A stretch of 64,000 nt of DNA from Streptacidiphilus albus JL83 (GTDB taxonomy: Bacteria; Actinomycetota; Actinomycetes; Streptomycetales; Streptomycetaceae). Location: contig NZ_JQML01000001.1 in NCBI RefSeq assembly GCF_000744705.1, forward strand, positions 2,542,001 through 2,606,000. Reading direction: 5' to 3'. Shown here piece by piece: positions 5,245-18,903 of this stretch. The notes beneath the pieces are model-generated. The model ran no database searches. It worked only from the letters and a program-made list of their open reading frames with translations, and was not told the origin of the DNA. Numbering within the stretch: position 1 is the stretch's first letter; the number at the start of each line of letters is the position of its first letter. Made by a program: the position numbers and the translations under genes.

Positions 5245-6489
5245 GTGGCGGGCGGATCGGCGCGGTGGCGGCGTGGCGAGGGTATGCGCGCGGACGCACA
5301 GGCCGCCAAGGATGCTGCTGCCCAGGCTTTCTACGACCTGGACATGGCCCAGCGCGACGTGCGGATCTCGGTGGAGGCGGTCACCGCCGCCGACAACTCC
5401 CCCGGCGCGCGGCGCGCGATCGCGGACTTCGCCGAGCTCGGCAACCGGATCGACCGGATCAGCTCGGACTACATCACCGCCCTCGACTCGATCGATCTGG
5501 ACGCCCAGGAGCTGGACGCCGGGGCCGTCGCCCGGGCCCGGCAGAGCCTCGAACAGTCGCGGCAGCAACTGCTCGGCGCCAAGGCCGAGCTGGAGCGCTT
5601 CTCCGGCTTCCTGCAGCCGCTGCTGGACGCCGCCGAGACCCAGTTGGCGCAGGTCGTGCCAGCCGTGGAGCGGGCCAAGCAGGGGTGGCTGGCGGCGAGC
5701 AACGCGCTGGACGCCGTCCGCGCGGCGCGGCTGAACGCGGACGATCTCGCCCGTCGGCTGGCGGCGCTGTCGCCGCAGCTGACGCTGCTGACCGAGGGCG
5801 CGGGCAAGCACGGCGTCCAGGCGGTGCTGCGGACGGCGGCGGAGGTGCAGCGGAGCGCCGAGGCGGTGCGGGCCGAGGCCGAGCGGCTGCCGGAGCAGGC
5901 GCGCGAGATCGACCAGCGGTTGGCCTCGCTCCGCACCCGGACCGACGCGCTGGAGACCAGGGCCGCCGGGGTCGACCCGACCCTGAGCGAGCTGCGCCGA
6001 CGCTTCAGCGCGGCCTGCTGGGAGGACCTCCAGCAGGTTCCGCAGCAGTCGGTGGAGGCCGTCCGCAACGCCCGGACCCGGCTGGTGGAGGCCGAGAAGG
6101 CCCGGGACGAGCAGCGCTGGGCCGACGCCGGCAACGTCCTGGCGACCGTGCGGACGCTGCTGGCGACGGCGGACGGCGCACTGTCGACCGTCAACGAGCG
6201 GCTGCACTCGCTGAACGAGGCGCAGCGCGCGCCGCAGGCCGAGATCGAGCGGACCCGGTTCGCGCTGCGCGACGCCCAGCGGCTGGCGATGACCGGTCGC
6301 AGCGCGCCCGACCCCCGGCACGCCGCGCCGCTGGACGCCGCGCTGCTCCGGCTGGACCGCGCGGCCGAGGCGCTGACCGGCCGGCACCCCGACTACTGGC
6401 AGTTCCTGACCGAGATGGCGGCGGTCCGGGAGACGGCGGCGCAGGTGGTCCAGCTGATCCGCGAGGAGCGCGGGGCCGGCGCCCGCTGA
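5245..6489 (+). CDS. Coiled-coil protein of unknown function
   Basis: The 414-residue protein is almost entirely alpha-helical, rich in Ala, Arg, Glu, Gln and Leu, with long heptad-like stretches at about 60-140 and 190-330. There is no signal peptide or membrane segment. The GTG start at 5245 has GGGAG six bases upstream; an ATG at 5284 is an alternative. It sits directly upstream of the FmdB and Ter genes on the other strand. Its placement beside Ter genes suggests a scaffold or partner role, but no catalytic motif is visible. Confidence 0.65.
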   Translation: MAGGSARWRRGEGMRADAQAAKDAAAQAFYDLDMAQRDVRISVEAVTAADNSPGARRAIADFAELGNRIDRISSDYITALDSIDLDAQELDAGAVARARQSLEQSRQQLLGAKAELERFSGFLQPLLDAAETQLAQVVPAVERAKQGWLAASNALDAVRAARLNADDLARRLAALSPQLTLLTEGAGKHGVQAVLRTAAEVQRSAEAVRAEAERLPEQAREIDQRLASLRTRTDALETRAAGVDPTLSELRRRFSAACWEDLQQVPQQSVEAVRNARTRLVEAEKARDEQRWADAGNVLATVRTLLATADGALSTVNERLHSLNEAQRAPQAEIERTRFALRDAQRLAMTGRSAPDPRHAAPLDAALLRLDRAAEALTGRHPDYWQFLTEMAAVRETAAQVVQLIREERGAGAR

Positions 6490-6833: not shown

Positions 6834-7673
6834 CTAGCCGACCGCCGCCGTCACCAGAACCCGGGCGAGCAGGCGGCGGACGATCTCCTCGCCCGCCGCG
6901 ACGCCGACCTCGGTCAGCGCGGTCACGCCCGGCGCGACCCAGCCGCTGTCGGCGAGCTCGCCGTGGCCGGGGCGATAGCCCGCGTCCGCCGCGAGCAGCA
7001 GCTCGGCGTCCAGCAGCGAGTCGCCGGCGGAGAGCACGGTGGAGGCGCCGGTGCGCCGTTCGACCTCGGCCAGCGCGGCCGACTTGGTGAGCGGCTGCGG
7101 CACCAGGTAGACCTTCCGTCCCTGCAGCGAGACGGTGTAGCCGCGGGTGTCGGCCCAGCCGGTCAGCTCCTCCACCCAGCCCGTCGGCAGCAGTTCGCGT
7201 TCGACCACCAGATAGGCGAAGAGGTCCTCGGCGACCCGGCGCTTCAGCGTCCACTCGGGGTCGGCCTCCAGCGCCAGGTGGTGGACGACCTCCTCCAGCG
7301 GGGCGCAGTTCTGCGCCAGCGCGGCGCTGACCTGGGCGGCCCAGTCCTGGTCGGGCTCGCCGTCCACCAGCAGGTGGCCGCCGTTGGCACAGACCGCGTA
7401 GCGCGGGGACCAGCCGGGGACCGGTCCGGGCAGGTGGACCCGCTGGTACTGGGCCCGGGTCCGGGTGGTGACCGGCACGAACTCGGCCGCGCCGATCAGC
7501 TCGACCAGCAGTTCGGCGCAGCGCTCGGTCATGAACGACAGCGGCTTGCCGTGGTGCACCTCGACCGCGATCAGCCGGGGCGCGTCCTCGTCGGACATGT
7601 CGAGCGCCAGGGCGCGCGGCGAGTAGATCAGCGTGCGGTCCAGGTCGCTGCCGATCAGGAAGCGGGTGTTCAT
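6834..7673 (-). CDS. HAD-superfamily phosphatase of the Ter cluster
   Basis: The 279-residue protein starts with the HAD motif I, LIGSDLDRTLIY (D10 nucleophile, D12 acid/base). It has a threonine-rich motif II (VPVTTRTRAQY), a Lys in LTKSAAL and the motif IV GDSLLDAELL. A small cap lies between about 80 and 180. In Ter-linked operons this enzyme is proposed to dephosphorylate an intermediate of a nucleoside-like metabolite. Its ATG overlaps the stop of the upstream PRTase/StiP gene (ATGA overlap), so the two are translationally coupled. Confidence 0.85.
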   Translation of the reverse strand: MNTRFLIGSDLDRTLIYSPRALALDMSDEDAPRLIAVEVHHGKPLSFMTERCAELLVELIGAAEFVPVTTRTRAQYQRVHLPGPVPGWSPRYAVCANGGHLLVDGEPDQDWAAQVSAALAQNCAPLEEVVHHLALEADPEWTLKRRVAEDLFAYLVVERELLPTGWVEELTGWADTRGYTVSLQGRKVYLVPQPLTKSAALAEVERRTGASTVLSAGDSLLDAELLLAADAGYRPGHGELADSGWVAPGVTALTEVGVAAGEEIVRRLLARVLVTAAVG

Positions 7674-10264
7674 ACGGCGGTGCCCTCGTCTCCGGTTGCC
7701 CCGCGGTTGTAGCGGGGGTGGATCAGTCCGACGCAGCTGTAGGGGAGGTCGTCGACGACCTCCACCGGAACCCCGCGCTGCTCGGCGAGCAGCCGGACGT
7801 GTCCGAGCTCGGCGTCCGCACCGCGCCGGACCAGGACCCGCCAGGGCACGCGCCGCAGCAGGACCCGGGTGGTCTCGCCCACGCCGGGCTTGACCAGGTT
7901 GACGCTGTGGATGCCGTACTCCTCGCTGATCCGCTCCATCGCGGCCCAGCCGGACCAGTCCGGTTCGCGCTCGGGCGCGTCGGCGGACATCGGCACGGCG
8001 GTCCCGGCGGCCCGGACGTCGGGGAAGCAGGCGGCGACGGCGTCCAGGAACTGCTCCGAGACGTCGCCGCCGGCCAGTTCGCGGTAGTACTTCGCGCCGT
8101 GGAAGTCGTCCGGGCCGATCAGTCCGGGCCGCAGCACGGTGCGCGAGACCAGGCCCGAGACGGTCGAGTTGAGGCAGGCCGAGGGGATCAGGAAGTCCTC
8201 GCGGGTGCCGAAGGTGCGGACGCAGCGGGCGGGGTCGGCCAGGACCGCCATCGCCGGGTCGAAGCCGGTGCCCTCCAGCGCCGCCGCCAGCTCCCGGGTG
8301 ATCGCGCCCTTGCCGGTCCAGCCGTCGACGAAGACCACGTCGGCCGGGTCGTGGTGGGCGCGGAGGTAGCGCAGCGCCACCGGGTCGATGCCCCGGCCCC
8401 GGACGATGGAGACGGCGTAGTGCGGCAGGTCCAGGCCGTGGGCGTACTGCGCCCAGCGGCGCATCAGGATGCCGACCGGCGTCCCGGCCCGGGCCAGCGA
8501 GGCGAGGACGGCGCCCCGGCCGCGCTCGGCCAGGAGGGTCTCGGTCACCACGGCGACGGCCTCGGCGATCCGGCCCGCCGAGTCCCGCAGCGCCGCGTGG
8601 AACAGCTGCTGGTAGGCGTCGGTGGGCTGGTACTCGATCGGCAGCGACTCCGCGTAGTGCGCGCCGCCCTGCTGGACGGCCTCCTCGCGCTCCTCGGTCG
8701 GCGCTTCGAGGGTGACCCCGGACAGGTCCTTCAGCAGCCAGGAGACCTCGTCCGCACGGTAGGAGGAGAAGGCCGGTCCATGGAGCGGGGTCGGCAGCAC
8801 CGCCACCGACGGCACCGGCGCGGAAGGCACCGCCACCGACGACACCAGCGCGGGCAGCGCCGCTGCCGACGGCACCGGCGCGGGGGCGGTCCGGCGCGGC
8901 CGGTGGGCGGGGACGGCGGCCAGCAGCACCAGGTCGGTGACGCCGCGCAGCCGTTCCAGCAGCCCCCGTCCCGGTGTGTGCAGCGGGGCGGCGTCGCCCT
9001 GCGAGTCGACCACCAGGACGATGGCGTCGAAGCGCCGCGCGGGGTCGACGCCGGGGTCGACGTTGTAGGCGTAGCGGGTGCCCTCGCCGTCGGCGGGCGC
9101 GTCGTGGGCGGGGAAGGCCAGTCGGGTGCGGATGGCGTAGCCGGGGTCGTCGACCGCCAGCACCGGCGAGCGGGTGGTGCTGGAGAAGAACACCGCGTCC
9201 TCCGGCTGCGGCAGCGCCTCCTGGAGCGCGGCGGCGAGGCGCAGCGGGGTGTACATCAGCTCCTCGGTGCCGAGCACCAGCACCCGGCGCGCGGAGCCGC
9301 CCTCCGCCGTGAGCGCCGAGGCCAGCCGCGCGGCCATGCCGGGCAGCGCCGAGGCCAGCCGCGCGGCCATGCCGGGCAGCGCCGCGTCCAACCGGGCCCG
9401 GTCGGCCGCGTCGTAGCCGTGCCGGCCGCCGTCGCGGAGGCCGGTCGGCCAGCCGAGGTCGACCCGGCGCAGCGGGGCGTGGCTGCCGTCGGTGAGGGTG
9501 CGGGCGGCGCAGGGGTTGCGGCCGTCCTCGGCCTCGACCAGGGCCGTGCCCCGAGCGAGCACGTCGGCCGGCAGGCCGACGGTGCCGCTGACGGTGGCCA
9601 CCACCTCGATCCGGGTGCCGAGGTCGGCGGCGGCCTTGGCCAGCCGGTCGCGGTCGCGGTCCGCGCGCAGGTCGACCATGGTGGCGACCACGTAGCGGGC
9701 CCGGGGGTGGCGGGCGTGCAGCGCGGTGATGGTGTTCACCAGTGTCTGCCCGGTGGAGAGTTCGTCGTCGACCAGGACCAGCGGGCCGGGTCCGGCCAGC
9801 AGGTCGGCGTCCTCCGGCAGCAGCAGGTGCGAGGTGGCGTGGGAGTGCTCCTCCTCGAAGCCGCCGACCGGCTCCACCCCGGCGACCGGCCGCCGGGTCG
9901 AGTGGAGGTAGCGGGCCGGGATGTCGCCGCCGAGGCCGTCCGCGACGCAGTGGCCGAGGCCGGTCGCGGTCTCGGCGTAGCCGAGGACGACCGCCGCCGA
10001 CGCCTCCGCGCCGAGCAGCTCGCGGACCGCCCGGCCGAGGTCGTGGCCGGCCCGGTAGACGGTCGCCGGCCGTTGCGGCACGTGCTTGCCGAGCACCTGG
10101 GAGACCAGCAGGTGCGCCCGCAGCGGATTGCGGCGCAGCGCCAGCCCCAGCAGCTCCCGCGCCGGGCCGGCCGGGAGCCGCACGCCGAGGCGGCGCTCGA
10201 CCCACTCCCCGGGCCAGACGTCGGCCGCTTCCACGGTTGCGGTGGGCTGCTGCTCAGCTTTCAT
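7670..10264 (-). CDS. Fused PRTase-TRSP-StiP-PELOTA protein of the Ter cluster
   Basis: This 864-residue protein joins functions usually carried by two genes. About 60-250 is an orotate-PRTase-like domain with the PRPP loop LVLVDDELSTGQT (162-174). About 270-455 is a TRSP-like domain (VLVLGTEELMYTP, FFSSTTRSPV). Residues 456-496 are a Pro/Ala/Val/Ser-rich linker. From about 497 it is StiP-like, with the conserved SACLNSTVSGL cysteine and DFHGAKYYREL histidine. The last 85 residues resemble the PELOTA RNA-binding domain. An 11-residue duplication (ALPGMAARLAS, twice) lies near 295-316. The ribosome site is AAGAAGG. The family is predicted to build or process a nucleoside-like compound; the chemistry is not proven. 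Confidence 0.88.
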   Translation of the reverse strand: MKAEQQPTATVEAADVWPGEWVERRLGVRLPAGPARELLGLALRRNPLRAHLLVSQVLGKHVPQRPATVYRAGHDLGRAVRELLGAEASAAVVLGYAETATGLGHCVADGLGGDIPARYLHSTRRPVAGVEPVGGFEEEHSHATSHLLLPEDADLLAGPGPLVLVDDELSTGQTLVNTITALHARHPRARYVVATMVDLRADRDRDRLAKAAADLGTRIEVVATVSGTVGLPADVLARGTALVEAEDGRNPCAARTLTDGSHAPLRRVDLGWPTGLRDGGRHGYDAADRARLDAALPGMAARLASALPGMAARLASALTAEGGSARRVLVLGTEELMYTPLRLAAALQEALPQPEDAVFFSSTTRSPVLAVDDPGYAIRTRLAFPAHDAPADGEGTRYAYNVDPGVDPARRFDAIVLVVDSQGDAAPLHTPGRGLLERLRGVTDLVLLAAVPAHRPRRTAPAPVPSAAALPALVSSVAVPSAPVPSVAVLPTPLHGPAFSSYRADEVSWLLKDLSGVTLEAPTEEREEAVQQGGAHYAESLPIEYQPTDAYQQLFHAALRDSAGRIAEAVAVVTETLLAERGRGAVLASLARAGTPVGILMRRWAQYAHGLDLPHYAVSIVRGRGIDPVALRYLRAHHDPADVVFVDGWTGKGAITRELAAALEGTGFDPAMAVLADPARCVRTFGTREDFLIPSACLNSTVSGLVSRTVLRPGLIGPDDFHGAKYYRELAGGDVSEQFLDAVAACFPDVRAAGTAVPMSADAPEREPDWSGWAAMERISEEYGIHSVNLVKPGVGETTRVLLRRVPWRVLVRRGADAELGHVRLLAEQRGVPVEVVDDLPYSCVGLIHPRYNRGATGDEGTAV
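9312..9377. repeat. 33-bp perfect tandem duplication inside the PRTase fusion gene
   Basis: Two exact 33-bp copies (9312-9344 and 9345-9377) encode ALPGMAARLAS twice in frame, between the PRTase and TRSP parts. The exact identity implies a recent duplication or ongoing slippage. Confidence 0.9.
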
Positions 10265-10376: not shown

Positions 10377-11582
10377 TCAGCGGCACAGGCAGGCGGCCAG
10401 CAGCTCCGCGAAGGTGACGTCCTCACGGGCGACGCCGAAGACCGAGGCCCGCAGCATGACCCGCTGGGCCCAGGCCCGGTGCGGCTTCACCTCGTTCATC
10501 TTGTTGGTGTACGCCGAGCGCAGCACGCCGCCGCCGGAGCGGTCCTGGTGCAGGATGTCGGCGGCGTCCGACCACTCCTCGTGGGTGGCGACGGCGAGGG
10601 CGTGGACGGCCGGCACATGGCTGGGGTGGATGCAGGTCTTGCCGAGCAGCCCGTTGGCGCGGTCGAGCTCTATCTCGCGGATCAGCCCGTCCAGGTCGTG
10701 CTCGATCAGCCGGCGCCGGACGCCGTCGGTCGGCGGCTCGGTGCCGGAGAACGGCGACTGCCGCAGCTGGGGCTTGAACTTCCGTTCCTGGACCGGGAAG
10801 TACTCCCAGACCGGACCGGTGACGGTGAAGCCGCTGCCGTCGGCCCGGCCCAGCACATTGACCACGTCGCCGATCACCGAGGCCACCAACTGGACGTCGT
10901 AGGCCGTGAGTTCCGGCGGACGGCGGAGTCCGTAGGCGGAGCAGAGGTCGGTCACGCCGAGCCGGACGGCGAGGATCTGCTCGCGGTGCTTCTCCAGTGC
11001 CCGGGCGATGCCGGAGAGCGTCTCCCGACGGGTCTCCAGGTGCGCCAGCTCCGGCGACTCCAGCACCGGCATGGCGAACAGCCGCAGCCCGGTCGCCGCC
11101 CGGACCGAGGCCAGGGCCTCCAGGAACGGCAGCCCGGTCTCCTCGGTGAACTTCGGCAGGACGAAGCCGGAGAGCAGCCGCAGCGCCGGTCCGAGCCGGG
11201 CGGCCAGGTCGGTGATCTGCCCGGCGCGGCGGACCCGGACGAAGAGCAGCGGGACCGGTGCGGCGGAACCCGACGCCCCGTCCTCCGCCCGGAGCTCCTC
11301 CTCCTCGGCCAGCCGGGTCAACTGCCGGACCAGGTTGGCCTCGGCGTCGGCGACCTCGCGGTCGTCGATGGCGTCCTCCAGGCAGAGCACCATGGACACC
11401 ACGCCCTGCGCCGCCTGCTTGCGGATGTCGGCCAGCAGGTGCGGGCGGGTGGCGGGCGAGTAGAGGGTGGCGCCGAGGGCGGTCGAGAGCACGCCGGGGG
11501 CGCTGTCCCGGTCGAAGTGCGCGGGTTCGTGCAGAAAGAGCCGTTGCCGGGTCTCCGCATCCAGTTGGCTGAAATGGTGCAC
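10377..11582 (-). CDS. HpcH/HpaI aldolase / citrate-lyase-like protein of the Ter cluster
   Basis: The protein has the CitE/HpcH TIM-barrel signatures: MVLCLEDAIDD (metal-binding acidic residues), PLLFVRVRRAGQI (CoA/metal-region Arg) and GFVLPKF. It is about 400 residues, longer than plain CitE (about 290), as is usual for the Ter-linked branch, with a C-terminal extension after residue 300. I chose the GTG at 11582 (HHFSQLDAETRQRLF), because close relatives begin this way, and a G-run precedes it. An ATG at 11618 is possible. It lies upstream of the PRTase fusion on the same strand with a 112-bp gap. Confidence 0.8.
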   Translation of the reverse strand: MHHFSQLDAETRQRLFLHEPAHFDRDSAPGVLSTALGATLYSPATRPHLLADIRKQAAQGVVSMVLCLEDAIDDREVADAEANLVRQLTRLAEEEELRAEDGASGSAAPVPLLFVRVRRAGQITDLAARLGPALRLLSGFVLPKFTEETGLPFLEALASVRAATGLRLFAMPVLESPELAHLETRRETLSGIARALEKHREQILAVRLGVTDLCSAYGLRRPPELTAYDVQLVASVIGDVVNVLGRADGSGFTVTGPVWEYFPVQERKFKPQLRQSPFSGTEPPTDGVRRRLIEHDLDGLIREIELDRANGLLGKTCIHPSHVPAVHALAVATHEEWSDAADILHQDRSGGGVLRSAYTNKMNEVKPHRAWAQRVMLRASVFGVAREDVTFAELLAACLCR

Positions 11583-11817
11583 GGGCCCCCCAGAGTGTGG
11601 TGTGCCGAGGAAAGTCATGGGGCGTGGGGGCCTGCCGGGATCCACCGGGGCCGTTGGGTGATCATCGTACGTAAGAAGTCGCCATAATCCAGCCAGGAAA
11701 CATGACGTTTTCGGAAGCGTGGCCACCGGTTAACACACCGGTCTCATCTGCCGACTCGTCCGGGCGCCGGAGGGCCCCGCATTGTCCTGGGCCTCCGCCG
11801 GACGGCAGGATGAGCCC

Positions 11818-12666
11818 ATGACCCGGGTGATGCCCAAAGGCTCGAACACTCCCCTGTCCGCCGTCGACGCGGTACGCGCCGTGCTGCGCTGGCGCGTCGC
11901 CCCCGGTGGACCGGACATCGACGTCGTCGCGCTGCTGCTGGGCACCGACGGGCGGGTGCGCAGCGACGAGGACTTCGTCTTCTACAACCAGCCCCGGCAC
12001 CCCTCGGGCCGGGTGCGGCACCGCTCCAAGACCCGGCGCGGCGAGGACCTCACCGACATCCTGGACATCGACCTGGCCCAGCTTCCGGCCGAGGTGGAGC
12101 GGGTGGTGGTCGGCGGAGCCGCCGAGGGCGGGAACTTCGCCCAGGTCACCGGGCTGTGCATCCAGCTCTACGACATCGCCCGGGGGCCGGACGCCGAGCC
12201 GCTGGCCCGCTTCGACATCGCCGACGCGAACCAGGTGACCGCGATGCTCTGCGGGGAGATCTACCGCCGCTCCGGCGGCTGGAAGTTCCGCGCGATCGGG
12301 CAGGGCTACGCCTCCGGGCTGGTCGGGCTGGCCACGGACTTCGGCGTCACCGTGGACGAGGACGAGGAGGAGGCCGGCGCGTCGGCCCCGGTGACGGTGC
12401 CCGCCCAGCAGTCCGTCCCGGACGGGACCGCGCCGGACCAGGGGTACGGCTACCCGCAGCTGCTGTCCGCCCCGCCGATGCCGGAGACGGCGCCGGAGGT
12501 ACCGCCGCAAGCGCCCCTCACGGCGCCGGAGGTACCGCCGCAAGCGCCCCTCACGGCGCCGGAGATGCCGACCCAGCCCGCGCCGTTCCCGATGCCGCCG
12601 CTGCTGCCGGAGCCGGAGGGCTTCGCCCTGCCGCCCCAGGGCCCGCAGTTCCTGTCGGTCGGCTGA
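11818..12666 (+). CDS. TerD-family protein with proline-rich tail
   Basis: The 282-residue protein has one TerD domain (about 5-185). It includes the [10 protein letters not shown] segment, a [11 protein letters not shown] stretch and the C-terminal [16 protein letters not shown] signature. TerD domains bind Ca2+ and mediate stress-linked membrane or complex functions. The N-terminal strand is atypical (MPKGSNTPL rather than LxKGGNxxL). Beyond 185 is a disordered Pro/Ala/Gln-rich tail with the 11-residue repeat [11 protein letters not shown] twice. The ATG at 11818 has AGGATGA upstream. It is divergent from the aldolase gene. Confidence 0.85.
12490..12555. repeat. 33-bp perfect tandem duplication in the TerD tail
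   Basis: Two exact 33-bp copies (12490-12522, 12523-12555) encode [11 protein letters not shown] twice. A third, partial copy (APEMP) follows. The repeat is in frame and only lengthens the disordered tail. Confidence 0.9.
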
Positions 12667-12780: not shown

Positions 12781-13509
12781 TCAGCTCACCGGCTTGTAGC
12801 CCCGCTGCCACTGGAGGCCCCAGCCGTACAGCCGGTCGAGTTCCGCCTGGAACCCGTACACGTACTTGGCCTCGCGGCGGACCTTCAGCACCCCGTCCCG
12901 GTTCTCGATCAGCGCCACGGCACAGGAGCGCGCCTGCGCGGCCTGCTGGTCGAGCTTGACCTCGATCGGCTTCCCGCCCGGGGGGAAGAGGGTCACCAGG
13001 GCGTGGGTGCGGTCGAAGGCCGGGGTCTCGTCGTAGATGTAGACGAAGATGAGCAGCCGCCGGAAGGAGTCCTTCTTCGACAGGTCGATGTACATCGTCT
13101 CGCCCGAGGGCGCACCGGAGCGGTCGTCGCGGCTGAGCTTGATGAACGGCGAATGCTGGAGGTCCCCGTACAGCTCGCCCAGCGGCTGGATCACCCCCTT
13201 GGTGCCGTCGGTCAGTTCGTACAGGCAGCCGAGGTCCAGGTCGACCGCGGTCGGCTGCGCCGAGGCCACCGGCAGCGGCATCGGCTTGAACAGCGTCGGG
13301 CGCAGCAGCCCCCGCCAGACCTCGCCGGAGCTGCGCCGGGCCGGGCCCTCCTCCCGGTTGGTCCAGTGCAGGTTGACCTGCATCGTCCCGGCGACCACGC
13401 CCTTCTCGGTCAGCGCCACCTCGGGTGAGCCCTTGCTGAGCGTCACCCGGTCCACACCGGCGTCGAAGCTCGCCTCGGCCCGGCGCAGGAAGTCCTTCAG
13501 TCCAGCCAT
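12781..13509 (-). CDS. TerA-like tellurium/stress protein
   Basis: The 242-residue protein resembles the Streptomyces tellurium-resistance protein that begins MAGLKDFLRRAEASFDAGVDRVTLSKG. It carries VDLDLGCLYELTDG (calcium-type acidic loop), LLIFVYIYDETPAF and the C-terminal YGFQAELDRLYGWGLQW. These features place it in the TerD-related TerA-like group. The ATG at 13509 is preceded by GGGGGTGG. It converges on the TerD gene (stop 12666) and is transcribed away from the DUF2637 gene across a 534-bp gap. Confidence 0.8.
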   Translation of the reverse strand: MAGLKDFLRRAEASFDAGVDRVTLSKGSPEVALTEKGVVAGTMQVNLHWTNREEGPARRSSGEVWRGLLRPTLFKPMPLPVASAQPTAVDLDLGCLYELTDGTKGVIQPLGELYGDLQHSPFIKLSRDDRSGAPSGETMYIDLSKKDSFRRLLIFVYIYDETPAFDRTHALVTLFPPGGKPIEVKLDQQAAQARSCAVALIENRDGVLKVRREAKYVYGFQAELDRLYGWGLQWQRGYKPVS

Positions 13510-15096: not shown

Positions 15097-16275
15097 ATGA
15101 TTGCCAGGCCTGCGACCTCCTCCACGTTGAAGGAGATCAACCTCCGTACCGTCCTCGATGTCATCCGTACCGCGCCGCCGGTCTCCCGGGCGGAGATCGC
15201 GCGGCGGACGGGCATCTCCAAGCCGACCGTCTCGGCGCTGCTCCAGGACCTCCTGGAGATGGGCCTGGTGTCCGAGACGGTCCGCGAGGAGCTGGGACCG
15301 ACCTACGGCGCACTCTTCTTCGCCCCGCGCCCCGAAGCCGCCCACGTCCTCGCACTGGACGTCGGCGCCCGCCGGCTGCGCGGCGCCGTCGCCGACCTCG
15401 AAGGGGCCGTCCACATCCGCCGTGACGTCCCGGTGGAGGGCATGGACGCGCACCAGGTGGTCGGCACCGCCGCCGCCCTCGCCGAGGAGCTCTGCGCCGA
15501 GGCCGGGATCAACCGCTCCGCCCTCCAGCACGCCGCGATCGGCGTCCCCGGCGTGGTGGACCGCCGCGACGGCCGGATCTGGCAGGCCACCAATGTGCCG
15601 GCGCTCGACGGCTTCCTGGCCCGGGACGCGTTCGAGAAGGCACTCGCGCTGCCGGTCACCGTGGAGAACGACATCCACCTGGCCGCCCTGGGCGAGCAGC
15701 GGCACGGCACCGGCGGCAGCACCGGGACGGACGCCGAGAGCTTCGTCTTCCTCTCCGTCGGCACCGGGGTGGGGGCCGGGCTGATCCTCCACGGCGAGCT
15801 GCACCGGGGCTTCGCGGGCGCGGCCGGCGAGCTGGACTGCGCGCTGGAGCCGGAGACCTTCGACGACAACGACCCCTGTGCGGTCGCGATCCTGCAGTTC
15901 GCGGCGCGACGGCTGCCGGGCCATCCGGACCTGAGCACCGAGCAGGTCTTCGAGCTGGCCCGCGCGGGCGACGAGGACGCCTGCGCGGTGGTCGACGAGG
16001 AGGCCCGGCGGATCTCCGGCTACCTCTCGACCGTCGCCGCGGTGGTCGACGTGGAGCTGGTCGTCCTCGGCGGCGGCATCGGCCTCAACGGCGACCTGCT
16101 GCTGCCCCGGATCCGTCGGCGGCTGGAGGAACGGCTGCCCTATCCCCCGGTGGTGGGGATCTCCGCGCTCGGCGACGCCGCCGTGCTCACCGGCGCGGTG
16201 GCCGTGGCCACCCGCGCGGCGCTGGAGCAGATCCTCAGCCTCCGCTTCGGCGCGCCCGGACGCCGCCGGGGCTGA
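15097..16275 (+). CDS. ROK-family transcriptional regulator
   Basis: The 392-residue protein joins an N-terminal winged helix-turn-helix (about 15-75; SRAEIARRTGISKPTVSALL) to a ROK sugar-kinase-like domain (LALDVGARRLRGAV, GVPGVVD, ENDIHLAALGE, SVGTGVGAGLILHGELHRG). The GCxGCxE zinc motif and surrounding kinase residues found in true ROK glucokinases are missing (the segment reads GELDCALEP), so it should be a regulator that senses a sugar or sugar phosphate. It starts 33 bp after the DUF2637 gene. Confidence 0.85.
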   Translation: MIARPATSSTLKEINLRTVLDVIRTAPPVSRAEIARRTGISKPTVSALLQDLLEMGLVSETVREELGPTYGALFFAPRPEAAHVLALDVGARRLRGAVADLEGAVHIRRDVPVEGMDAHQVVGTAAALAEELCAEAGINRSALQHAAIGVPGVVDRRDGRIWQATNVPALDGFLARDAFEKALALPVTVENDIHLAALGEQRHGTGGSTGTDAESFVFLSVGTGVGAGLILHGELHRGFAGAAGELDCALEPETFDDNDPCAVAILQFAARRLPGHPDLSTEQVFELARAGDEDACAVVDEEARRISGYLSTVAAVVDVELVVLGGGIGLNGDLLLPRIRRRLEERLPYPPVVGISALGDAAVLTGAVAVATRAALEQILSLRFGAPGRRRG

Positions 16276-16348: not shown

Positions 16349-17449
16349 CTAGGCCGGGCCGGGGGGCGTTCCGGCCTCCAGTGCGATCCGGCGGTTCCGC
16401 AGCATCGAGGAGAGCAGCGCCAGGCCGATGAAGGCGACGCCGATCAACCCGGTGACGATCTCCGGGATCTCGTACTCGATGGAGACCATCAGGATGACCG
16501 CCAGCGCGCCGATGGCGTAGTGGGCACCGTGCTCCAGGTAGACGTAGTCGTCCAGGGTGCCCTGGCGGACCAGGTAGACCGTCAGCGAGCGGATGTACAT
16601 GGCGCCGATGCCCAGGCCCAGGGTGATCTGGAAGATGTCCTGGCTGATGGCGAAGGCCCCGACGACGCCGTCGAAGGAGAAGGAGGCGTCGAGCACCTCC
16701 AGGTAGAGGAAGAGGAAGAACGCGGCCTTGCCCGCGACCAGCACGGCGGACTTGCCGCCGGGCTTGGCCACAGCGCCCTCCTCCGCCTCCTCGCCGTCCT
16801 CGTCCTCGCCCGCGCCCTCGAAGAGGTCGGACAGGCCGCTGACCGCCAGATAGGTGGTGAGTCCGGCGACACCGGCCAGCAGTACCGTTTCAGCACGGTC
16901 CCCGGCGAAGAACCGGGCCGAGAGCATCAGCACCACCATCGACACCACGACCGAGAGCTGGTTGAGCTTGCCGACCTTCTCCAGCGGGGCCTCGACCCAG
17001 TGCAGCCAGCGGACCTCCTTCTCACCGAGGATGAAGTCCAGGAAGATCATGAGCAGGAACATCCCGCCGAAGGCGGCGATGGCCGGGTGGGCGGCGTTCA
17101 GGTGCTGGGCGTAGGTGAGGCCCTGGTAGGTCTTGCCGGAGTCGAGGGCCAGCTCGACCACGGTCTGCGGGCCGATGTGCGCGGTGAGCGCGACCACCAG
17201 CAGCGGGAAGACCAGCCGCATGCCGAAGACGGCGATCAGCACGCCGACGGTAAGAAAGATCTTCTGCCAGAACGGGGTCATCCGCTTGAGGATGGTGGCG
17301 TTGATGACCGCGTTGTCGAAGGAGAGCGAGATCTCCAGGACGGAGAGGATCAGCACGACACCGAAGCCGTCCGCCCCCCAGAAGTAGGCGGCCGCCGCCA
17401 GCCCTAGCGCGGTGATCCCGAAGGACCAGCCGAAGGTACGGAGTAGCAC
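16349..17449 (-). CDS. TerC/DUF475-family integral membrane protein
   Basis: The 366-residue protein has about nine membrane helices. It carries two half-repeats with acidic motifs within membrane segments: SVLEISLSFDNAVINA and YLEVLDASFSFDGVVGAF. These are the hallmark of TerC/DUF475 metal-ion transport-like proteins. A charged, Glu-rich cytoplasmic loop lies at about 225-250. The GTG at 17449 fits the family start (LLRTFGWSFGITALG) and has AAAGGGA upstream; a longer frame from 17500 is less likely. It is followed upstream by two TerD genes on the same strand, a typical Ter grouping. Confidence 0.88.
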   Translation of the reverse strand: MLLRTFGWSFGITALGLAAAAYFWGADGFGVVLILSVLEISLSFDNAVINATILKRMTPFWQKIFLTVGVLIAVFGMRLVFPLLVVALTAHIGPQTVVELALDSGKTYQGLTYAQHLNAAHPAIAAFGGMFLLMIFLDFILGEKEVRWLHWVEAPLEKVGKLNQLSVVVSMVVLMLSARFFAGDRAETVLLAGVAGLTTYLAVSGLSDLFEGAGEDEDGEEAEEGAVAKPGGKSAVLVAGKAAFFLFLYLEVLDASFSFDGVVGAFAISQDIFQITLGLGIGAMYIRSLTVYLVRQGTLDDYVYLEHGAHYAIGALAVILMVSIEYEIPEIVTGLIGVAFIGLALLSSMLRNRRIALEAGTPPGPA

Positions 17450-17555
17450 AGGGGTCAGTCCCTTTCGGTAGCGTGCGGCAACAGCGGCGACGGGGGCCAC
17501 CGTTCGACCGGTTCGCCGCGGTCCGGACGACCCCCGTACCCTGCCGCACGTTCTC

Positions 17556-18327: not shown

Positions 18328-18903
18328 TCAGACGTTGACGCCGAAGTCCTGGGCGATCCCGCGCAGGCCGGAGGCGTAGCCCTGGCCGATGGCGCGGAAC
18401 TTCCACTCGGCGCCGTTCCGGTAGAGCTCGCCGAAGACCATCGCGGTCTCGGTCGAGGCGTCCTCGGTGAGGTCGTAGCGCGCGATCTCCTGGCCGGTGG
18501 CCTGGTTGACGATCCGGATGTACGCGTTGCGGACCTGGCCGAAGCTCTGCAGCCGGGACTCCGCCTCGTAGATCGAGACCGGAAACACGATCTTCGCCAC
18601 GCCGGCCGGCACGCCCGCCAGGTTGACCTTGATGACCTCGTCGTCGCCCTCGCCCTCACCGGTGAGGTTGTCGCCGGTGTGCTCGACCGAGCCGTCGGCG
18701 GACTTGAGGTTGTTGTAGAAGACGAAGTCCTTGTCCGAGACGACCTTGCCGGCCTCGGAGGTGAGGATCGCGCTGGCGTCGAGGTCGAAGTCGGCGCCCG
18801 TGGTCGTACGGGCTTCCCAGCCCAGACCCACGAGAACGGCCGTCAGGCCCGGCGCCTCTTTGGTGAGCGAGACATTGCCACCCTTGCTGAGGCTGACACC
18901 CAC
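18328..18903 (-). CDS. terD: TerD-family calcium-binding stress protein
   Basis: This 191-residue protein has all TerD signatures: [35 protein letters not shown], the acidic [13 protein letters not shown] stretch, [12 protein letters not shown] and [15 protein letters not shown]. The ATG at 18903 has a GGAGG-like site (CTGGAGGACTCGTGGG). Family members bind Ca2+ with high affinity and are linked to tellurite, phage and osmotic or oxidative stress. It precedes the second terD and follows the divergently placed peroxiredoxin region on the same strand. Confidence 0.93.

Follow-up and report, generated by a model that had tools for sequence, protein, structure and literature searches.

A 64,000-nucleotide stretch of the genome of Streptacidiphilus albus JL83 (contig NZ_JQML01000001.1, positions 2,542,001 to 2,606,000; hereafter, the window, with positions counted from its first letter) carries, among Ter genes, a single gene that encodes PRTase_2, TRSP, StiP and PELOTA_1 domains in one protein. 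This gene is a known Ter module in a variant architecture, and a common variant at that; the useful result of the present analysis is, rather, a corrected identity for the second half of the protein, where StiP, named in databases as a cysteine protease, looks like a second, non-canonical module of the phosphoribosyltransferase (PRTase) fold. Together with the HAD phosphatase and the CitE-like lyase encoded on either side, the fused protein may well be a tethered biosynthetic enzyme that depends on phosphoribosyl pyrophosphate (PRPP) and combines two PRTase folds, a pseudo-PRTase and an L7Ae-like RNA-binding tail, a reading that we favor with moderate confidence.

Domains of the fused protein

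The gene is a single open frame of 864 codons that runs from an ATG to a TGA, and its third-position GC of 0.97 indicates a codon use like that of a real gene. In a Pfam search, all four domain matches exceeded the curated cut-offs (Table 1). The earlier note on this DNA, made from the sequence without database searches, had described just such a one-frame fusion, with a Pro/Ala/Val linker, an ATGA overlap with a HAD phosphatase gene and a Ter neighborhood, all of which stand.

Table 1. Features of the fused gene and its surroundings (positions in the window)
Feature	Position	Strand	Details
PRTase_2-TRSP-linker-StiP-PELOTA_1 fused gene	7670..10264	minus	864 aa
PRTase_2 (PF15609)	9584..10153	minus	residues 38-227, Pfam 225 bits
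TRSP (PF12500)	8981..9433	minus	residues 278-428, Pfam 121 bits
Linker-coding tandem repeat (minisatellite)	8793-8884	minus	30-bp period, 3.1 copies, 79% matches
StiP (PF11202)	8036..8767	minus	residues 500-743, Pfam 345 bits, profile positions 1-244 of 245
PELOTA_1 (PF15608), L7Ae-like	7718..7957	minus	residues 770-849, Pfam 121 bits
HAD phosphatase	6834..7673	minus	279 aa; start inside the stop codon of the fused gene, ATGA 7673-7670
C-C_Bond_Lyase (CitE/HpcH-like TIM barrel)	10377..11726	minus	449 aa, PF15617 E 6.4e-120; upstream, same direction
Homologue of a 346-399-aa hypothetical protein	5245..6489	plus	partial alignment, 36-37% identity
TerD-domain gene	11818..12666	plus	PF02342 E 2.7e-44
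Homologue of a Mycolicibacterium 'Tellurium resistance' protein	12781..13509	minus	43% identity (tblastn), no Pfam match
TerC-like DUF475 membrane protein	16349..17500	minus	
TerD gene	18328..18903	minus	PF02342 E 1.4e-85

The assignment of StiP to the PRTase fold draws on its predicted structure, its motifs and an older Pfam name. All of the 50 structural matches listed for the predicted StiP structure are PRTase-type, except for one hypothetical protein, and no cysteine-protease fold appears among them. In an alignment of 132 StiP sequences (rows), no cysteine column is invariant; the loops of the domain read S589xxRAG594 and D647GWTGKG653, and the set of pyrophosphate (PPi)-loop and PRPP-loop positions is nearly invariant. 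A published Pfam table enters the domain as PRTase_1, the older Pfam name. Compared with the type I PRTases PyrR, HGPRT and XGPRT, StiP stands apart by its PRPP loop, DGWTGKG, and by a long C-terminal extension with the L7Ae-like domain. With the CriT-CrpP part of Bcs3, the Haemophilus influenzae type b (Hib) capsule polymerase (PDB 8a0c), it shares 8% identity, and whereas the acidic pair of CriT consists of D680 and E818 on two loops, in StiP D647 is followed by a glycine.

This glycine is one of several observations that weigh against a second PRTase-fold enzyme. Of the two vicinal acidic residues of the PRPP motif, StiP has only the first, with D647-G648 (DG, not DD) in 132/132 rows. Homology of StiP to PRTase_2 was sought by profile comparison twice and rejected as not significant (probability 0.5%, with 34/100 shuffles scoring as high), and the comparison with the TRSP profile was not significant either (7/100 shuffles as high). 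In the Foldseek search, the PyrR matches are only modest (E ~3e-3), and the sole match below 1e-3 is a chain of the ISC iron-sulfur complex (probability 0.51, TM-score 0.20), with low-probability cysteine desulfurases close behind. The AlphaFold2 model of the full-length protein has a mean predicted local distance difference test score (pLDDT) of 88 and a predicted TM-score (pTM) of 0.75; because of that pTM, and because the rows of split proteins are unpaired in the alignment, the packing of the domains in the model was not used. Given the incomplete acidic pair and the lack of significant profile similarity, StiP could therefore be a non-catalytic binder like PyrR.

The first half of the protein combines an intact and a degenerate module. 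The PRPP motif of PRTase_2 (LVDDELSTGQT, from residue 164) is complete, its D, D, E and both T being kept in 117/117 aligned rows, and the profile of the domain recovers PyrR and APRT from the PDB as weak matches (best E 0.0038); unlike PRPP synthetase and the associated proteins PAP39/41, PRTase_2 retains the transferase-type DDE...TGxT motif. TRSP has no PRPP loop and, in profile comparison, looks like a degenerate copy of PRTase_2, that is, a pseudo-PRTase: hhalign of PRTase_2 against TRSP gave a score of 37.6 over 117 columns, compared with a mean of 13.2 for shuffled controls (standard deviation 2.5, maximum 20.9, 0/100 as high) and 11.0 for the reversed control. In the full-length structure search, the matches were filled by the first domain; by sequence, the whole protein had no match in the PDB at E <= 1 and no model in NCBIfam at E <= 0.01.

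The C-terminal PELOTA_1 domain looks like an L7Ae-like RNA-binding tail, to judge from its modeled fold and a fitting RNA-contact motif. The motif, K792-P...E797-x-T799-R800, is invariant in 132/132 rows and lines up with KxGxNETTK in archaeal L7Ae, and the fold matched 2hvy_D of an H/ACA ribonucleoprotein at probability 1.00. By profile, L7Ae is a weak match in the PDB (best E 0.11), the best row overall being 40S ribosomal protein S12 (E 0.039).

A putative PRPP-dependent route

In the reading that we favor, both PRTase folds, PRTase_2 and StiP, are probably catalytic. PRTase_2 would probably place ribose 5-phosphate on a small, base-like acceptor, with the degenerate TRSP probably supporting or dimerizing it, a part that the second PRTase-fold half plays in PRPP synthetase. 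StiP probably transfers another phosphoribosyl group or holds a phosphoribosylated intermediate, while the L7Ae-like tail would bind RNA; the adjacent HAD phosphatase could then take off the 5-phosphate or phosphates, and the upstream CitE-like lyase might cut a C-C bond in the precursor or the product, trimming the carbon chain. The fusion itself probably goes back to two neighboring genes within the series CitE, PRTase, StiP, HAD, the flexible linker merely tethering the modules. In Bcs3, a PRTase-like transferase and then a HAD-like phosphatase act on PRPP-derived ribose (PMC10299916), evidence that such a pair can make O-linked ribose.

Reading StiP as a second PRTase fold followed by an RNA-binding tail, and TRSP as a pseudo-PRTase, shifts the choice of assays from proteolysis to PRPP turnover and RNA binding, for which the natural fusion offers a convenient reagent in a single polypeptide. 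Among the literature matches listed, which cover open-access text, none deals with how the biosynthetic half of Ter operons works chemically, and none describes a PRTase-StiP fusion.

Alternative readings

The Pfam name of the domain, 'Tellurite-like stress resistance cysteine protease StiP', and plasmid annotations as 'cysteine protease StiP family protein' suggest a fusion of a PRPP step with a proteolytic step that uses a thiol, and the candidate cysteines C681, C697 and C844 are each present in 124/132 rows, the window protein included. However, 6/132 rows lack all three, single ones are lost within the Gram-positive type (L067 has S697, L066 lacks 697 and 844, and L047 lacks 681), the predicted structure points to PRTases, and among the matches listed in open-access text there is no paper on protease activity of StiP. 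On the grounds of conservation and predicted fold, the cysteine protease was dropped as the leading reading, the structure ranking being no formal exclusion, and we consider it very unlikely. The thiol-using step of the earlier note thus loses its footing, having rested on the database name; with StiP PRTase-like and devoid of an invariant cysteine, the fusion appears, therefore, to join two PRPP-type modules. StiP could also be a PRTase-fold sensor akin to PyrR, non-catalytic, that binds the product or a nucleotide as well as RNA and regulates the enzyme tethered to it, which we deem unlikely. The conservation of the PPi and PRPP loops goes beyond the needs of a degenerate binder, but this weighs little, because PyrR itself keeps PPi-loop-type and PRPP-loop-type motifs.

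The RNA-binding tail lends itself to another scenario, to which we give a small chance, namely, that StiP-PELOTA_1 is a PRPP-dependent RNA modifier in which the tail docks on kinked RNA and the PRTase-fold domain phosphoribosylates it, with PRTase_2-TRSP supplying a related nucleotide; in that case, the Ter operon would alter RNA under stress. The invariance of the L7Ae-like motif fits such a function, and there are precedents for the chemistry: CriT is a PRTase-like fold that transfers O-linked ribose phosphate (PMC10299916), and Rit1 puts the ribosyl phosphate of PRPP on position 64 of the initiator tRNA (PMC7694415). Yet, no RNA target was found, and none was sought; modeling reported in another study gave PELOTA_1 fewer hydrogen bonds to K-turn RNA than L7Ae (PMC5571608), and a small molecule suits the CitE-like lyase and the HAD phosphatase better. 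More specifically, the entire fused protein might be a stress-operon RNA phosphoribosyltransferase, its L7Ae-like tail guiding StiP, which would move ribose phosphate from PRPP to structured RNA while tethered to the first pair of PRTase and pseudo-PRTase; this is distinctly unlikely but, if true, would provide a bacterial counterpart of the Rit1 chemistry in an operon with links to resistance against tellurite and phages. Finally, the chance that the fusion is a sequencing or assembly artifact, or trivial read-through, is negligible. Frameshifts do occur in high-GC genomes, and one genome of the same genus (G070) has a broken StiP, but fusion in the same frame recurs across the family and in the scan described below, with linkers unrelated to one another, and the codon use is gene-like; a frameshift or missed stop at the junction, which the earlier note had considered, need not be invoked.

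The linker and the junction

In the tethered PRPP-dependent enzyme that we favor, the two halves are connected by a Pro/Ala/Val stretch at about residues 455-492, of which residues 462-486 have pLDDT <50 and are predicted to be disordered. Among the fused rows listed, between 1 and 105 residues separate the two profile matches, and the joint is, therefore, a tether rather than a fixed geometry. Accordingly, for a covalent fusion, the proposal of the earlier note that the two steps act in one complex is sensible, but it does not extend to a set spatial arrangement. The linkers of fused relatives are unrelated to one another, and many of those in Streptomyces end with Met-Leu-Pro-Glu, where separate StiP proteins start. 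A start codon with a Shine-Dalgarno-like 4-mer, from which a separate StiP might be made, lies near the junction in 24/92 same-frame genes, compared with 4/92 at a control position; unlike these 24, the window gene has no start codon with such a site at the junction, and neither do its nearest kin (L027, L031 and L080).

The window protein has the same domains in one frame as the fused proteins of other Streptomycetaceae and of Nocardia, but differs from them in its own 30-bp repeat linker and in an exact 33-bp duplication in the TRSP-coding part. The latter is a tandem repeat of 2.2 copies at 9312-9384, which lengthens the protein by an 11-residue repeat where the model is less confident.

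Distribution of the fused form

The fusion is recurrent and is the majority state in the family of the window, but is not universal in actinobacteria. Of the 150 genomes surveyed in this family, 141 have StiP and 140 have PRTase_2; one genome (G003) has StiP without PRTase_2. Where both are matched (140 genomes), the two domains share a single frame uninterrupted by stops in 105 and lie in different frames or contigs in the other 35; the 105 include G070, with its broken StiP, and the 35 include G075 and G105, where the matches are on different contigs (at the G075 locus, L033, TRSP and StiP do share a frame). Within the genus, 9/14 genomes, G070 among them, have the fused form and 5/14 are devoid of the system. 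The same five lack StiP, PRTase_2 and ATPgrasp_Ter (E <= 1e-12) together; the StiP of G070 (G070:C4:5022588-5023318) is broken across two frames. A sample of 217 genomes from the phylum yielded StiP above the cut-off in 10, nine of them fused and eight of these nine from the family of the window; with 207/217 genomes lacking StiP above the cut-off, the fused form is far from present in nearly every actinobacterium, the outcome that the earlier note had named as fatal to its claim.

A separate scan of named genomes covered the best 80 of 592 relatives, such that its shares are not frequencies. TRSP and StiP share one frame at 63 of these loci and are separate at 16, and one contig has no PRTase. 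The fused loci come from Streptomyces (49/50), Nocardia (10/12), Rhodococcus (1/4) and one each of Streptacidiphilus, Actinacidiphila and Propionibacterium, and the split ones include Bacillota (7/7), Actinomadura (2/2), one Williamsia and one Subtercola. On plasmids, the split form was found in Bacillota (3/3), Pseudomonadota (3/3) and the one Deinococcus examined; Tsukamurella and Mycolicibacterium have PRTase and StiP as two genes, and a Nocardia farcinica record and a Curtobacterium record have them fused. The statement in the earlier note that the two are usually separate genes holds, then, for Bacillota, the Pseudomonadota plasmids, the Deinococcus plasmid, Tsukamurella and Mycolicibacterium, but not for the family of the window or for Nocardia. 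Parts of the module are widespread, with matches to the window protein in 2567 plasmid records. Among phages, 4 of 50,697 records match, none of these four over 80% of the query, and three loci in viral contigs are all of the split form; the three proteins tried against PHROGs had no match. On a Streptomyces linear plasmid, a StiP gene (L048:8295-9425) adjoins alcohol dehydrogenase and gluconokinase genes, and the 18 kb examined there contain no PRTase gene.

A quick StiP tree (LG+G4, SH-aLRT) was built from 128/132 rows, leaving out the extra same-family rows L036, L038, L039 and L040, and came with a warning of long branches that meet. Two rows had no state, and L126 and L128, where TRSP and StiP share a frame and the best PRTase match lies in another, were set by hand as fused; the tally of linker gaps counts these two as split (61 fused, 18 split and one without PRTase). 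On this tree, the fused or split state requires 10 changes, five of which are forced by well-supported branches, compared with a mean of 31.6 for shuffled labels. The rows nearest to the window protein are same-genus genomes and Streptacidiphilus carbonis.

The operon and its Ter neighborhood

A Ter-linked biosynthetic module was reportedly described by Anantharaman, Iyer and Aravind in 2012. The module, as reported, and the operon of the window share PRTase_2/TRSP, StiP (PRTase_1)/PELOTA, HAD, the CitE-like lyase and TerD/TerC neighbors, and differ in that, in the window, PRTase and StiP form one protein and no ATP-grasp gene was found in the operon. Two TerD genes and TerC/DUF475 lie within 9 kb of the fused gene.

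HAD phosphatases carry the motifs DxDxT, T/S, K and GDxxxD. The corresponding residues of the window protein, D10, D12, T14, T69, K197, G217 and D222, are kept in 8/8 aligned homologues, and one homologue, from Lactococcus, has Asn in place of the Asp that follows G217. The window gene has no Pfam HAD model at E <= 5; its homologues L064 and L063 match Hydrolase_3/S6PP.

The window order, CitE-PRTase-StiP-HAD, contrasts with that of Deinococcus and Polaromonas, ATP-grasp, PRTase, HAD, StiP, CitE, to which a Pseudomonas plasmid adds one gene between ATP-grasp and PRTase. In Tsukamurella, Mycolicibacterium, Brevibacillus, Lactococcus and Alkaliphilus, the genes run CitE, PRTase, StiP, with a HAD-type gene after StiP at four of these five Gram-positive loci and none annotated beside the StiP of Brevibacillus. 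Of the two main gene orders, only this one places PRTase and StiP side by side, with a 4-base overlap between the two genes in several Actinobacteria. On a Bradyrhizobium plasmid, a hypothetical gene stands between PRTase and StiP, and no ATP-grasp is listed. The additional gene of the Pseudomonas plasmid (L046:7708-8847) encodes a trypsin-like peptidase joined to a TerD-like stretch.

The earlier note regarded the route as incomplete, or finished elsewhere, for want of ATP-grasp genes in the window. We searched the whole genome with PF15632 (ATPgrasp_Ter), as well as the operon and its neighboring genes, a subset of the window's open reading frames (ORFs), with Pfam. Within this scope, the absence was borne out for the operon and its neighbors, and the genome contains a single PF15632 match over the cut-off, a protein of 393 aa (121 bits) encoded 3.9 Mb away, at 6.49 Mb, which shares 33% identity with the operon-borne protein of Pseudomonas. 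No recognized Ter gene was found among the ten ORFs scanned beside this copy (L035:8310-9491), which, with the S-adenosylmethionine (SAM) methyltransferase and AMP-binding/CoA-ligase genes around it, may form a small biosynthetic cluster of its own. The missing gene need not, however, mean that the route is incomplete, as ATP-grasp is not obligate. No gene is annotated as ATP-grasp within 8-10 kb of the Tsukamurella, Mycolicibacterium, Brevibacillus, Lactococcus and Alkaliphilus operons, and 71 of the 141 StiP-positive genomes of the family have no ATPgrasp_Ter match at E <= 1e-12. The 70/150 family genomes that do (E <= 1e-12) are all StiP-positive (hypergeometric p 0.003, uncorrected for relatedness), and a loose association between the two is possible. 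ATPgrasp_Ter is equally frequent with the fused (52/105) and split (18/35) forms and, because of this equal share and the 71 StiP-positive genomes without it, a route free of ATP-grasp is the simpler reading for this operon type.

Among the other genes of the neighborhood, the homologue at 5245-6489 corresponds to a gene that adjoins the CitE-like gene in Ter operons of Mycobacteriales. It weakly matches the JetC and LmuB models of PADLOC, which returned nothing for the other seven of the eight proteins searched. ARAGORN places a tRNA-Leu (gag) at 15432-15527 on the minus strand, inside a ROK-family ORF (15097-16275), and one of the two is probably spurious.

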